From assembly GCA_947588955.1 (NCBI GenBank), contig CANPYX010000009.1, positions 1 to 62,180 of the forward strand: 62,180 bases of DNA, written 5' to 3'. Within the stretch, counting starts at the first letter, position 1. Each line of letters starts with the position of its first letter. The position numbers and the translations under genes were made by a program. Under the pieces are notes generated by a model. The model saw only the letters and a program-made list of their open reading frames with translations, was not told the origin of the DNA and ran no database searches. Origin of the DNA: an uncultured Oscillospiraceae bacterium (GTDB taxonomy: Bacteria > Bacillota > Clostridia > Oscillospirales > Oscillospiraceae). Shown piece by piece: positions 11,303 to 62,098 of the stretch.

Positions 11303-11410
11303 CTGTCGCAGCGGGATGCGGACGGCGCACCGCGAGGATTTTCCCTCTTCGTCCCGAGGGCAACTCTCCGTCCCTCGGGCACTTGACGCGCGCCGGCCTA
11401 CTCTGCACAG
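11303..11410 (-). promoter_or_regulatory. Tetrahydrofolate (THF) riboswitch
   Basis: Read on the minus strand, the 5' UTR of folT holds the conserved THF-I blocks in order: GCAGAGTAG at the 5' arm of P1, GTCAAGTG, GGGACG, ACGAAGAG, CGGTGCGCC and GCATCCCGCTGC closing P1. The P1 stem CTGTGCAG pairs with CTGC-G-ACAG. A second hairpin (ATACGC/GCGTAT, about 11281-11298) lies between aptamer and RBS and may serve as expression platform. The class fits the folate transporter it precedes. Confidence 0.88.
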
Positions 11411-13172: not shown

Positions 13173-13854
13173 GCGGTTTATTGAGCTTATAAGCCTGAAA
13201 ATTGACGGCCTGCTTGACGGTGACGGCGAGCGGGAGCTTGCGGAGCACATCGCCGCCTGCCCCGAGTGCAACGAGCTTTACGGGATAATGACGCGCGCCC
13301 ACGGCGCGCTGGGATTTGAGGTGGAGCCTCCGGCGGAGCTTCTCACGAATGTGATGGAGTCCGTGAGGCGGGAGAAAGCGGCGGGGAGCCGCGCGCGCCG
13401 CCGTTGGGTGGGCTTTGCCGGAGCGTTTGCCGCCGCCGCGGCTGTGCTGGCGCTTGCCGTCATTCCCAGCACGCTTCAAAACAACGCTAAGGATAATAAC
13501 AGTAACGGCGCGTCGCGCTCAGGCAATCCGGAGCAGTACAACATATCCACAGGCACGGATGAAACGGCGGGACAGGACCCCGCCGTCTGCATGGCGCCAC
13601 CGGAGAGCGGGATAACCGCCTTCTCCCTTACGGACAGGGACTTTGACGAGCTTGCCGCCGCCTGTTACGCGGTGGTGTATTTCAGTCAGTTCCCGGAGGA
13701 CGTGGAGCCCTGCGAGCCCGTCACCTTCACCAACGGCGCCGCCGGACGCTATATCACCCCGGAGCTCTTAGAGAAATACGAACCCACCGCCGACCGCGTT
13801 GACTACCCCAACCCCGACAGCGACATCATCATAGCGGTAATTTTCCCCCAATAA
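13159..13854 (+). CDS. Anti-sigma factor with zinc-finger (ZAS-like) domain
   Basis: 231-aa protein with N-terminal HIAACPEC, the HxxxCxxC signature of zinc-containing anti-sigma domains, one membrane helix (WVGFAGAFAAAAAVLALAV, ~70-92), and an extracytoplasmic part of ~135 residues with no recognised domain. It would hold the cognate sigma at the membrane. GTG 13159, eight bases after AAGGAGG, gives a 14-base overlap with the sigma gene; a farther upstream ATG at 13093 has no RBS. Confidence 0.85.
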   Translation: MEEHERFIELISLKIDGLLDGDGERELAEHIAACPECNELYGIMTRAHGALGFEVEPPAELLTNVMESVRREKAAGSRARRRWVGFAGAFAAAAAVLALAVIPSTLQNNAKDNNSNGASRSGNPEQYNISTGTDETAGQDPAVCMAPPESGITAFSLTDRDFDELAAACYAVVYFSQFPEDVEPCEPVTFTNGAAGRYITPELLEKYEPTADRVDYPNPDSDIIIAVIFPQ

Positions 13855-13910
13855 TGCCCTCTTACCCAAAAAGAAACCACCCAAAATCTCAGAATCTCAA
13901 AATAAAACAT

Positions 13911-14151
13911 TTTTCCGGCGGCATGTACGTCGGAAAAATCACCTTATGTCGCGCAAGTGTGCCGCCTTTTGGGGTCCCCACGCAATCATGATTGCGTGGG
14001 GAGAGGAGGAGCGGAGCCTGCGCCTGAGCCCTGCCGCTTGCGGCGGGGCGAGGTTAAGCGGCTTCAGCGACGACGAGTGCGCGCAGCGCGACAGCAGGAA
14101 ACGCCCTCTCGAATTCCGCAGAATTCGAGAGGGCGTTTCCGCACGTATCCC
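13911..14151 (+). repeat. 240-bp structured intergenic repeat, copy 1
   Basis: Same orientation as, and about nine-tenths identical by eye to, 61859-62098. Hairpins in order: TTTTTCCGGCGG/CGTCGGAAAAA; a 26-bp palindrome centred on CAATCATGATTG; a GC-rich middle with CGCTTGCGGCG; and a 20-bp stem ending GAATTC-CGCA-GAATTC. It fills the gap of 325 bases between the anti-sigma gene and phosphoglucomutase; nothing coding is recognised there. Confidence 0.85.
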
Positions 14152-14153
14152 CT

Positions 14154-14190
14154 TTGGTGCGTGAAAGGGCAAAGCCCTTTCACGCACCAA
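14154..14190 (-). terminator. Hairpin overlapping the phosphoglucomutase stop codon
   Basis: Perfect stem of 15 or more bp (GGTGCGTGAAAGGGC and complement) with an AAA loop. The last codons and TGA stop of the gene lie inside one arm. It adjoins the 3' end of repeat copy 1. Confidence 0.7.
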
Positions 14191-15907
14191 GATTCATCGC
14201 CCAATCCGCGTACCGTGCTGTCTTCTCCTTTGCCTCAGGCATATTCTCGCCGCGGCAGAGGACGTATACCTTGACCTTCGGCTCGGTGCCGGAGGGACGG
14301 ACGATGATGACGGTGCCGTCGGTGAGGACGAAGGACAGCACGTTGGAGCCGGAGAGCTCCATCTTCTCCACCTTCCCGGTGGTGGCGTCCCTTTCGGAGC
14401 CGTCCTTGTAGTCCCGGTAGAGCTTTATATCCTGTCCGGCGATCTGGGCGGGAGGGTCGTTCCTGAGCCCGTCCATCAGCGCCTTCATCTTCTTCTGACC
14501 GTCAAGTCCGGGCATGACCAGGTTCAGAGTCTTCTCCAGGTAAGCGCCGTACTTCTCATAGAGGGCGTCCAGGGCGTCCACAAGGGCGATGCCCTGGGAG
14601 GCGTACCACGCCGCCATCTCGCAGATGATGAGCGAGGCGGTCACGGCGTCCTTGTCCCTCACGTAGTCGCCGAACATGTAGCCGTAGGACTCCTCAAAGG
14701 AGAATATCACCTTGCCCTGTCCCGATTCCTCCAGGGCGTTCTTCTTCTCGGCGAGGAACTTAAAGCCCGTGAAGGTGTCATAGAACTGGAGCCCGTTCTT
14801 CTCCGCCACGGCGCGGGCCATCTCGGAGGAGACGATGGACTTGAGGGCGACGGGGTTCTCCGGCATGGTCCCGGCGCGCCTTTTCGCGCCGATGATGTAA
14901 TCGAGAAGCAGGACGCCGGTTTGGTTGCCGGTGAAGGGTATGAACTTCCCGTCGTGATCACGGACCATGATGCCCACCCGGTCCGCGTCCGGGTCGGAGC
15001 CCAGAATAAAGTCCGCCCCCACCTTGTCCGCAAGCTCAATACACAGGTAGAAGCCCTCAGGATTTTCGGGGTTGGGGGATTTGACGGTGGGGAAGTCGCC
15101 GTCCTTGACCATCTGCTTCTCCTCGCAGTAGACGTGCTTGAGCCCCAGCCGCTTCAACGCTTCGGGGATAAGCACCCTGCCGGTGCCGTGGAAGGGGGTG
15201 TAGACCATCTTGAAGGTGTCCGCCACCTTCTCAATGACGGCGGGGTCGTTGCGCTGAGCCATAACGTTGGCAAGGAACTTCTCGTCGGTCTCGGAGCCCA
15301 TGAGGACGATTTTGCCCTCCGCCACAGCCTCGTCGAAGTCCACGGTCTTCACGCAGTCAAACACGTCCAGCTTCGCCATTTTTGCCGCCACCTGGTCGGC
15401 GTGCTGCGGGGGCAGCTGGGCGCCGTCCTCCCAGTACACCTTGTAGCCGTTGTACTCCCTGGGGTTGTGGGAGGCGGTGATGTTGATGCCGGCTATGCAT
15501 TTGTACTCCCTTATGGCGAAGGAGAGCTCGGGGGTGGGGCGCATCTCGTCAAAGAGACGGACGAATATCCCGTTTGCCGCCATGACCCTGGCGGCCTCGT
15601 GGGCAAAGACCTCCGAATTGTTGCGGCAGTCGTAGCAAACGGCGACGCCGCGCTTTACCGCATCGGGACCCTCCGCCAGTATGACCTCGGCAAAGGCCTG
15701 GGTGGTGTGGCGTATCACGTGGACGTTCATGCGGTTGAGGCCCACCGCCATCGTGCCGCGAAGTCCGGCGGTGCCAAACTCAAGCTGGGCGATAAAGCGG
15801 GATTCGATCTCCTTCTCGTCCCCGGCGATGGACTGAAGCTCGGCCTTCTCCTCCGCTGACAGGGCGGGGGAATTAAGCCATTTTTCGTAGGTGTCACGGT
15901 AGCTCAT
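14180..15907 (-). CDS. Phospho-sugar mutase (phosphoglucomutase/phosphomannomutase)
   Basis: 575-aa alpha-D-phosphohexomutase. Domain 1 carries FGTAGLRGTM and the active-site serine in ITASHNPREYNGYK; the metal loop DPDADRVGIMV is in domain 2; ESYGYMFGD is the sugar-binding loop of domain 3; VRPSGTEPKVKVY in domain 4 binds phosphate. Interconverts glucose-1-P and glucose-6-P (PgcA-like). Three bases downstream of the DUF2007-like gene, so probably in one transcript with rlmH. Confidence 0.94.
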   Translation of the reverse strand: MSYRDTYEKWLNSPALSAEEKAELQSIAGDEKEIESRFIAQLEFGTAGLRGTMAVGLNRMNVHVIRHTTQAFAEVILAEGPDAVKRGVAVCYDCRNNSEVFAHEAARVMAANGIFVRLFDEMRPTPELSFAIREYKCIAGINITASHNPREYNGYKVYWEDGAQLPPQHADQVAAKMAKLDVFDCVKTVDFDEAVAEGKIVLMGSETDEKFLANVMAQRNDPAVIEKVADTFKMVYTPFHGTGRVLIPEALKRLGLKHVYCEEKQMVKDGDFPTVKSPNPENPEGFYLCIELADKVGADFILGSDPDADRVGIMVRDHDGKFIPFTGNQTGVLLLDYIIGAKRRAGTMPENPVALKSIVSSEMARAVAEKNGLQFYDTFTGFKFLAEKKNALEESGQGKVIFSFEESYGYMFGDYVRDKDAVTASLIICEMAAWYASQGIALVDALDALYEKYGAYLEKTLNLVMPGLDGQKKMKALMDGLRNDPPAQIAGQDIKLYRDYKDGSERDATTGKVEKMELSGSNVLSFVLTDGTVIIVRPSGTEPKVKVYVLCRGENMPEAKEKTARYADWAMNLGA

Positions 15908-28624: not shown

Positions 28625-29036
28625 ATCAAAGCGCCTGTGGGCGAGGAATGTCCATGCGCGCACTGCGATGATCCGGGAGATTGCGCCTTTGGCGGTAACT
28701 TCCGGGGAGTATGTCCGGTCGTTGCTGAAAGCTTTTCTGACCGGACGCGAGCCCAGCGAAGCGGCTCGCGGACGGAAAGGAGGAGCGAAGTCAGCGTGCG
28801 AGCCGTGAGACAAACGCGAAGCGATTGTCGAGCGGCGAGGAACGCGACTTCCGCGACGACGCAATCGGGCGGTCGAAAGATTTACTGGTGCATGGCGGCT
28901 ATTGCGTATATCGCCTGCACAGGAACGCGGCCGGAGAAAGTCCGGCTTTGTTTCTGAGGCGGGAGTGATACGCACGGATATGTGGACAGAAATTTTTCAC
29001 CGTACTACTAAATGTACGATTTTGGAGGAAACAAAA
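28625..29036 (+). promoter_or_regulatory. Long structured leader of the S10 operon
   Basis: About 400 bases without a recognisable gene between promoter and rpsJ. Hairpins visible by eye: TCCGGTC/GACCGGA around 28710-28742, CGCGAGCC/GGCTCGCG around 28746-28770, GCCGGA/TCCGGC around 28930-28947. A frame of 106 codons (28637-28957) has no homology or RBS and is not called. Leader-based autoregulation by a ribosomal protein is plausible, but no known leader class is recognised. Confidence 0.5.
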
Positions 29037-60500: not shown

Positions 60501-61912
60501 ATGGAAACACTGCGGAACATCTCGATCATCTGGGCCACTGCCCACTCCGCCCTGCTGAACTTTTTGATGGTCATTCCCCGCACCGGCCGGAGAACCTATG
60601 TGATCCTCACCGCGGTATTCGCCGGGCTCCTCGTGGCGGTCAACTCCGCCGCCATATTCATTTTTGGACCCTCCGCAGTGGCAAATCTCAGCTTTTTCAC
60701 CGCGTCCATCCCCAGCTTCATCTATTTCTTCCTCATCTCCAAATACCGGGACGGGCGGCTGATCTTCATCTTCTGCGCGGGGGACATCTTCACGCTGATC
60801 CTGCTCACCCTTACGGGGATGGTCGGCGCCGCGCTGGGGGACAACGTGTGGTTTCTCTTTTTCAGCCGCCTGATCCTATACCCTCTGGCGGTGACCCTTC
60901 TCACCGTGTTCCTGCGTCGGTTCTACCTGCAAATCATCACGGAGATCAAAAAGAACTGGGGCATAATCGCGGCGATTTTGGTGGTCTTTTATATCGAACT
61001 GGAGCTGCTTCTCGTCGTGCCAACCACCATAACGCAGCGCCCGGAGTATTACCCCGCGTTTTTTGGCTTCTGCGTGGTGATCGTCCTCACCTGCGTCCTG
61101 TTCGGCTACATTATCCGGGACCAGCTGCTCATCAACCGCTTTGAGCAGACGGAACAGCTGCTCTCCGTGCAGGTGCGCTCCTTTGAAAGCACCCTTCAGA
61201 CATTGGAGCGGGAAGAAAAGGAGATGCGTATCCTCCGTCACGATTTGCGTCACTATGAAAACAGCCTGAGGGAGATGCTGAACAAGGGCGACCTGGAGGG
61301 TGCCATGAAAATACTGGGGGCATGGACGAGGCCACGCAGCGGGTCATCCCAAAGCGGTACTGCGCCGACCATACCGTCAACGCCATCCTCCTCAATTATA
61401 TCGCACGGGCGGAGGAGCTGGGGTGCAGGGTGACCGTCAAGGTCGATCTGGCGGAGACCCTGCCGGTGGATAAGGTGGAGCTTTGCATCATGCTCTCAAA
61501 CGCGCTGGAGAACGCGGTCAACGCCTGCGGGCGTATCTCCGACACAAAGCGGCGGGAGCTGCGCATCACCTGTATCAGCCGCCCGGAGCTTGCCATCGGA
61601 ATCTACAACACCTATGAGGGCACGGTGGTCATAGACGAGAGCGGGTTGCCCGTCTCCCGCGACGACTACCACGGCTACGGCACCCAGAGCATCAGGCTCT
61701 TCGCCCAAAAGTACGGGGCAGTGCTGGACTTCGACGCCGACGGCACATGGTTCAAGGTCCGAGTAGTGTTCCCGCCCTCTCCGCCAACGCTCAAAAAACA
61801 AAATCCGCTGACACACGTTATTGCCCTGACGTTCAGGTATGACCCCCAAATTAAATATTTTTCCGACGGCATGTACGTCGGAAAAATCACCTTATGTCGC
61901 GCAAGTGTGTGA
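60501..61912 (+). pseudogene. GHKL sensor histidine kinase (AgrC-like), frameshifted
   Basis: About six membrane helices (~1-205), then a coiled coil, phospho-His in LRHDLRHYENS, and a GHKL ATPase with N-box MLSNALENAVNAC and a GYGTQSIRLFAQKYGA G-box. At about 61313-61325 the frame changes: one G seems missing from CTGGGGGCATGG, separating the His region from the ATPase. The last ~18 codons come from the 240-bp repeat, which supplies the stop. Together with the preceding regulator it is a quorum-sensing-type pair without a visible peptide gene. Confidence 0.85.
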
Positions 61913-62098
61913 CCATATGGGGTCCCCACGCAATCATAATTGCGTGGGGAGAGGAGGAGCGAAGCCTGCACCTGAGCCCTGCCGCTTGCGGCGGGGAGAG
62001 GTTAAGCGGCTTCCGCGACGACGAGGGCGCGCGCAGCGCGACAGCAGGAAAAATCCCTTGAATTCCGCAGAATTCAAGGGATTTTTCCGCACGTTCCC
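61859..62098 (+). repeat. 240-bp structured intergenic repeat, copy 2
   Basis: Matches 13911-14151 in order and orientation. Hairpin 1 (TTTTTCCGACG/CGTCGGAAAAA) is perfect here. Palindrome CCCCACGCAATC-ATA-ATTGCGTGGGG. The last long stem has a different sequence from copy 1 but is again perfect (GGAAAAATCCCTTGAATTC, CGCA loop). Follows the kinase gene. Confidence 0.85.

Follow-up and report, generated by a model that had tools for sequence, protein, structure and literature searches.

Small fold-defined repeats behind gene ends in Oscillospiraceae, probably a family of mobile elements

Two composite repeats in the window

The window is the whole stretch of DNA that was analysed, 62,180 nucleotides of contig C9 in the 2.56-Mb draft genome of an uncultured Oscillospiraceae bacterium (the source genome). 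Its plus strand carries a 240-bp repeat twice, with hairpin A beginning at 13910 in copy 1 and at 61858 in copy 2. An earlier note on this DNA had described these two copies with the same order of hairpins, and both are present. The repeat is real, but it is not one unit: it is a composite of two elements, a 138-bp unit with three stems and a unit B of about 108 bp that splits it, and it occurs in far more than two copies. The 138-bp unit consists, in order, of hairpin A, a stem P2 that closes hairpin E, and the long hairpin C. Each window copy contains hairpin A, a linker, the P2 5' arm, the 108-bp unit B, the P2 3' arm, and hairpin C, with the end CGCACGT. In copies without unit B, P2 closes the short hairpin E, mostly with a three-base loop. 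This B-less form is commoner, with 92 copies vs 29 with B in sequence from the source genome and a relative.

All parts of the element were assigned to the plus strand. In copy 1, hairpin A (13910-13938) has an 11-bp stem and the 7-base loop GCATGTA. The P2 arms, GTCGCGC (13948-13954) and GCGCGAC (14086-14092), are separated by unit B (13969-14076, TTGGGGTCCCC...GACGACGA), the start of which was set by eye. Hairpin C (14098-14139) has a perfect 19-bp stem with a CGCA loop, followed by the conserved right end of the element, CGCACGTATC (14140-14149). Copy 2 comprises hairpin A (61858-61886), the P2 5' arm (61896-61902), unit B (61917-62024, start again set by eye), the P2 3' arm (62036-62042), hairpin C (62048-62087, a perfect 18-bp stem with a CGCA loop), and the right end CGCACGTTCC (62088-62097). 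As had been stated, the last long stems are perfect palindromes whose arms differ between the copies around an identical loop. When 13906-14197 was folded as RNA, z was -12.4 for the plus and -9.3 for the minus strand, and 0 of 200 shuffles did as well on either.

Both copies had been said to follow the end of a plus-strand gene. This holds for copy 1, where the preceding plus-strand ORF ends at 13854. In copy 2, the plus-strand ORF of a GHKL-domain ATPase (61322-61912) crosses hairpin A and stops at 61912. Beyond its Pfam match, this ORF extends for about 45 residues across hairpin A and ends before unit B; the element therefore seems to supply the end of the protein. Beyond the right end of copy 1, the next hairpin is hairpin D (14154-14190, no strand assigned), a perfect 17-bp palindrome over the stop codon of a convergent minus-strand phosphoglucomutase gene, which terminates within it. 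Around copy 1, no promoter-like or terminator-like site was listed by a consensus scan, and hairpin D was not among its results.

Neither a known RNA family nor a known protein was recognised in the element, in agreement with the earlier note. The Rfam scan of the window gave no family above its gathering score over the element, and when copy 1 and 20 loci of other genera were scanned permissively, only matches below cut-off resulted, so a known RNA family was rejected. Three ORFs of 83-105 aa on the window copies matched no Pfam family, transposases included, up to E 0.1. Elsewhere in the window, Rfam places a THF riboswitch at 11307-11407 (minus strand) and an S10-Clostridia leader at 28660-28748 (plus strand). 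The contig end, 62106-62180, starts with GGGGCTGTGAAAAAAG; contigs C17 and C55 of the source genome terminate in this sequence too, just past a copy, and a similar start is seen at C57. The assembly was probably broken here by an insertion sequence.

Conservation of the fold

An alignment of 69 B-less copies was used to examine the stems and to build a covariance model. In hairpin A, P2, and hairpin C, 99.2% of the cells form standard pairs, and sliding the pairing partner lowers this to 40-57%. Both sides have changed in 25 of the 40 pairs. Double-change cells number 401, compared with 107 in shuffles, and none of 500 shuffles reaches 401; such cells are not independent events, because the copies are related. 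The number of different pair types per position is a safer sign, and up to four Watson-Crick pair types are seen at one position. In P2, the arms GTCGCGC/GCGCGAC are exchanged wholesale with GTTTTGC/GCAAAAC in 12 of the 69 copies. Among 22 copies from different genera, hairpin A shows double changes at 8 of its 11 pairs, again with 0 of 500 shuffles as high. For hairpin C, 77 distinct sequences offered 37 comparisons that differ at a single pair position, of which 27 are compensated and 10 one-sided.

Covariation above shuffles that is kept across species is one mark of a structured non-coding RNA, and this is what the copies display. The earlier note had concluded from paired changes in two copies that structure is what is kept. 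The conclusion stands on the 69 copies, but two copies alone are no proof, because hairpins are exchanged between copies. Free decay of the stems is not seen, and the copies were not found to belong to any known insertion sequence.

Copy number and distribution

The genome and its relatives were searched with the covariance model, as the earlier note had proposed. By pattern, hairpin A plus linker (at most 3 mismatches) occurs at 66 places in the 2.56 Mb of the source genome, one of which (C11:56407) lacks the rest of the element, and a strict hairpin C pattern occurs at 44; the control gave 0 for both. The model itself has at least 96 matches in this genome, where a copy interrupted by B yields two matches. 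In the genus, 30 of 34 genomes have matches: 18 (source genome counted) have at least 47, 10 have 1 to 7, and the other 4 have none, with up to 96 candidates scored per genome. In the family, with up to 16 candidates scored, 51 of 200 genomes (source genome counted) have a match at E <= 1e-8. When up to 150 candidates were scored in other genera, 10 genomes from nine genera gave 3 to 58 matches at E <= 1e-5. None of 298 other genomes of the phylum gave a match, the source genome being the only one among 299; this control is less sensitive because only up to 11 candidates were scored per genome, and the family member G098, with one match in the family search, gave none there. Within the sample searched, the element is restricted to one bacterial family.

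Twenty copies, drawn from seven genomes that represent six other genera, were compared by eye. The loop of hairpin A, the linker, and the P2/E plan are the same, and another long, terminator-like hairpin occupies the position of hairpin C. An extra upstream hairpin follows a motif like CCTCGCAGAGTT or CCTCGGCAGAGTT in loci L204-L221 and L223 (with variants in L219 and L221) and is absent from L222; no such hairpin was noticed in the flanks read from the genus of the source genome.

Phage records held no similar DNA and viral contigs no exact hairpin A, and carriage by phages was rejected as far as those searches go. No earlier description of the element was found in the open-licence literature searched, supplements of structured-RNA catalogues aside. 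The main text of one such catalogue, in the part consulted, does not contain Faecalibacterium, Ruminococc- or Oscillo- (PMC8040213), and its supplements may list the family.

Unit B is a repeat of its own. It was found inside many copies, alone, nested within B-like units, and in a third, MITE-like element. Some sites shared by the source genome and a relative have it in only one of the two. Its inner stem, in 300 cells from 50 copies, has 267 Watson-Crick, 10 G.T, 2 A.C, and 21 other cells, and several arm pairs have changed on both sides. Unit B probably represents a second structured element that entered many copies. The MITE-like repeat is about 280 bp long, has the ends ATACTAATATCTA / TAGATATTAGTAT, and contains a B unit; six were aligned (L136, L134 with diverged ends, L135, L164, L165, and L168).

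Position relative to genes

Placement was studied in the source genome and in a relative, the uncultured Oscillospiraceae assembly Lapin-032 bin87 (G024), which judging by its name comes from rabbit gut. Genes were taken from simple codon-usage calls. The sample from the relative was 1.14 Mb of sequence taken regardless of copies, in which 37 of 42 model matches were placed and the five weakest or split ones omitted. All 37 lie in gene gaps, 22 convergent, 15 tandem, and 0 divergent, while gaps of at least 60 bp in this sample comprise 70 convergent, 244 tandem, and 77 divergent ones. Convergent gaps are enriched (22/35 vs 140/384 expected, p = 0.002). The gene on the C side is directed towards the element in 35 of the 37 copies, at a spacing of 30 to 97 bp in 25 of the 35. 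In the source genome, the C side faces the 3' end of a gene in 58 of 67 records; the remaining 10 of the 77 had no gene called on that side. On the other side, the upstream gene is directed away in 13 of the 37 copies of the relative, so that these have no obvious upstream transcript.

Another palindrome, hairpin D, usually lies between hairpin C and the C-side gene. It is probably the terminator of that gene (phosphoglucomutase in copy 1) and usually lies outside the element. At two sites that lack the element in the relative (C4_102384 and C14_4461), hairpin D is kept, and at four others it is absent or a different hairpin is found.

Movement and exchange of parts

To compare orthologous sites, 31 of 78 records of the source genome were used that had both flanks in the sequence of the relative, C11:56437 being excluded as a non-intact copy. 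Identity of the flanks ranges from 89 to 99% and is mostly 94 to 98%. The element is present at 24 sites, six are empty, and one holds a copy in the opposite orientation (C2_184056, classed in this way rather than as empty on reading). On contigs taken regardless of copies, the 26 sites divide into 19 shared, six empty, and one with the opposite orientation. Such presence and absence is characteristic of non-autonomous mobile elements. Copies have moved, been gained or been lost at orthologous sites, and since 19 of 26 sites are shared, movement is not frequent. A simple junction is seen at one of the six empty sites, C4_102384, where an ambiguous low-complexity AAAAA repeat may hint at a target-site duplication; the other five have no clean junction and differ by more than the element. 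The ends do not resemble those of a MITE with inverted termini, which was rejected: in 71 copies, the longest inverted match between the left 26 and the right 24 bases averages 4.07, compared with 4.10 for random partners.

At the 24 filled sites, hairpin C is identical in 4, differs by 1 or 2 changes in 5, and in 15 has at least 3 changes or a different length; 11 of these 15 hairpins were replaced wholesale. At four of the sites with a changed hairpin C, both genomes share a rare type of hairpin A, which indicates that hairpin C changed in place. The reverse occurred at C5_61860, where hairpin A changed and hairpin C did not. Of the 48 hairpins C at shared sites, 36 are perfect and 12 hold 1 or 2 mismatches, and one-sided mismatches persist in near-identical orthologous pairs. 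In one copy of the relative (L031:7751-7809), the linker, P2, and hairpin E have become one 26-bp perfect palindrome with a TTC loop, which suggests that arm-to-arm copying has happened at least once.

Parts are also exchanged around unit B. P2 arms of different type were found in 9 of 29 copies with B and in 2 of 92 copies without it (p = 3e-5). These chimeric arms fit recombination between copies through B, although the extra length that B offers for crossing over can produce them too.

Strand sense of the fold

The earlier note left open whether the structure is kept as RNA or as extruded DNA, and the answer differs by stem. On the plus strand, the non-standard cells of hairpin A in 110 records are 84 G.T, 3 A.C, and 14 other, and those of P2 are 13 G.T, 3 A.C, and 4 other. 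Hairpin E, in 91 copies, has 116 G.T cells vs 1 A.C cell. Together, these three stems have 213 G.T and 7 A.C cells. At one position of hairpin A across genera, G.U was found in 16 copies, A-U in 3, G-C in 2, and another combination in 1, with no A.C. In 69 of 69 copies, plus-strand RNA gives the core its better fold; the mean advantage is 12.2 kcal/mol, vs 1.0 (sd 3.3) for shuffled sequences. Because G.T cells are inherited, neither the cell counts nor the 69 copies are independent. The same result was obtained in 10 of 10 single copies taken from further species of the genus. Of the 20 copies from the six other genera (seven genomes), 18 have the better core fold on the plus strand, one shows no difference, and one slightly favours the minus strand. 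Longer stretches of six copies from other genera fold lower on the plus strand in four cases and on the minus strand in two.

Hairpin C has equal folding energies on both strands. Its 1659 cells include 8 G.T, 18 A.C, and 4 other, a lean opposite to that of the core (p = 0.08). From the G.T bias and the plus-strand folding, the core looks like RNA running in the A-to-C direction, while hairpin C, for which no strand preference was detected, is held as a near-perfect palindrome.

Mobile repeat or alternative explanations

Folds remain intact while the letters change, so the element looks like a mobile repeat defined by its structure. We consider it probable, with some reserve, that it is a small, non-coding mobile element of a new interspersed family, whose members are united by fold and not by sequence. 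Copies would be placed by an enzyme supplied in trans that recognises a folded strand or a terminator hairpin, and would be tolerated, perhaps useful, at 3' ends. Plus-strand RNA of the element would give the upstream transcript a structured tail. Hairpin C may be kept near-perfect through selection, or through hairpin-templated correction together with exchange between copies. A SINE-like cycle, in which a short plus-strand RNA is recognised through its fold by a reverse transcriptase of the host or a parasite and copied into DNA beside terminator hairpins, is a clearly improbable proposal. If true, it would explain the RNA-sense core, the placement on the terminator side, the high copy number, and the absence of inverted ends.

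The position behind gene ends, including the enrichment in convergent gaps (22/35 vs 140/384, p = 0.002), would also suit a functional RNA motif of 3' ends, such as an insulator, a terminator partner, or an mRNA 3' stabiliser, that spread long ago and whose copies are kept similar by recombination. The plus-strand bias seen for the core, both within the genus and in six other genera, and the conservation of 19 of 26 sites agree with such a motif. It fits poorly with six empty sites and one opposite copy among the 26, with the interruption of 29 of 121 copies by B (9 of the 29 with P2 arms of different type), with 14 of 34 genus genomes that have only 0 to 7 matches, and with the 13 of 37 copies in the relative whose upstream gene is directed away; we regard it as unlikely, though worth serious attention. 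The tolerance of hairpin A, P2, and hairpin E for G.T and hardly for A.C on the plus strand (213 vs 7 cells) and the conservation of hairpin A structure across genera argue against another explanation, in which there is no selection on the fold and palindromes are perfected at the DNA level by template switching, that is arm-to-arm copying, and by gene conversion among dispersed copies. One-sided mismatches that persist in orthologous pairs, with 1 or 2 in 12 of 48 hairpins, and the change of hairpin A beside an unchanged hairpin C at C5_61860 also speak against it. Hairpin C offers points in its favour: it is equal on both strands with G.T in only 8 of 1659 cells, 27 of 37 one-position differences are compensated, and it changed at 15 of 24 shared sites, with the rare hairpin A type kept at 4 of the 15. 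The 26-bp palindrome at L031 is likewise what arm-to-arm copying would give. We judge this explanation to be decidedly improbable.

Two known kinds of mobile DNA were weighed as parents. High-copy extragenic palindromes, the hallmark of REP and REPIN elements, are what was found here, and the copies are mosaic and nested like BIMEs, but the element is larger than a REP, according to the part of PMC3733652 consulted. The Y1_Tnp domain of RAYT transposases (PF01797) occurs in 18 of 34 genus genomes, the relative among them, yet there are 0 in the source genome and 0 in G014, G015, G020, and G028, each of which has at least 78 model matches; the assemblies are drafts, and the genomes in this test are 92-99% complete. 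With the domain missing from five high-copy draft genomes, RAYT was rejected as a consistent mobiliser, and descent of the element from a RAYT-mobilised REP/REPIN family is very improbable. Group IIC introns start with GUGYG, and they were considered because of the terminator-adjacent, fixed-orientation placement and because the right end has the sequence ACGTGCG on its minus strand. Such introns insert at intrinsic terminators, as described in the part of PMC4424553 consulted, which resembles the placement seen here. The element is far too small at 138 bp, no group II intron family was found in the Rfam scan of the window, and the copies inspected in other genera do not retain the GTGCG end. 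The maturase domain PF08388 is absent from the source genome and the relative and present in only 3 of 34 genus genomes. An origin as a group IIC intron derivative was rejected and appears scarcely conceivable.

Relation to known repeats and significance

The small dispersed repeats (SDRs) of cyanobacteria also have compensated stems and nested insertions, and are suspected to move without a known enzyme; they differ in size, at about 21-27 nt. The GC clusters and double-hairpin elements of fungal mitochondria are mobile, structurally constrained hairpins, with palindromes that merge and shuffle, and differ in being organellar, shorter, and, in the portion of PMC4478555 consulted, not tied to terminators. 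Partial text of PMC3446304 describes bcr1-type repeats of the Bacillus cereus group as high-copy, intergenic, MITE-like, and often located in UTRs, and bcr10 and bcr18 of the same series as having conserved secondary structure. Compared by description and not by sequence, the present element differs from bcr1-type repeats in its host family, its three stems, its fixed orientation behind gene ends, and its exchanged hairpins. REP, BIME, and REPIN elements are extragenic palindromes that are clustered, nested, and non-autonomous (PMC3116915, in part); here, the unit is 138 bp long, the arms differ strongly between copies, and several high-copy genomes have no RAYT-type domain. By analogy, the element would work like BIME or bcr1 repeats, yet by the tests made it lies outside the RAYT-moved families.

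Small repeats are usually filed by sequence. The family described here, which we take to be mobile, is held together by its fold and, in gut bacteria of one family, concentrated behind gene ends, and it offers dozens of natural paired mutations per genome. It opens questions on whether bacterial repeats may move via folded RNA or single-stranded DNA, how near-perfect palindromes are maintained, and whether elements of this sort influence the 3' ends of transcripts.
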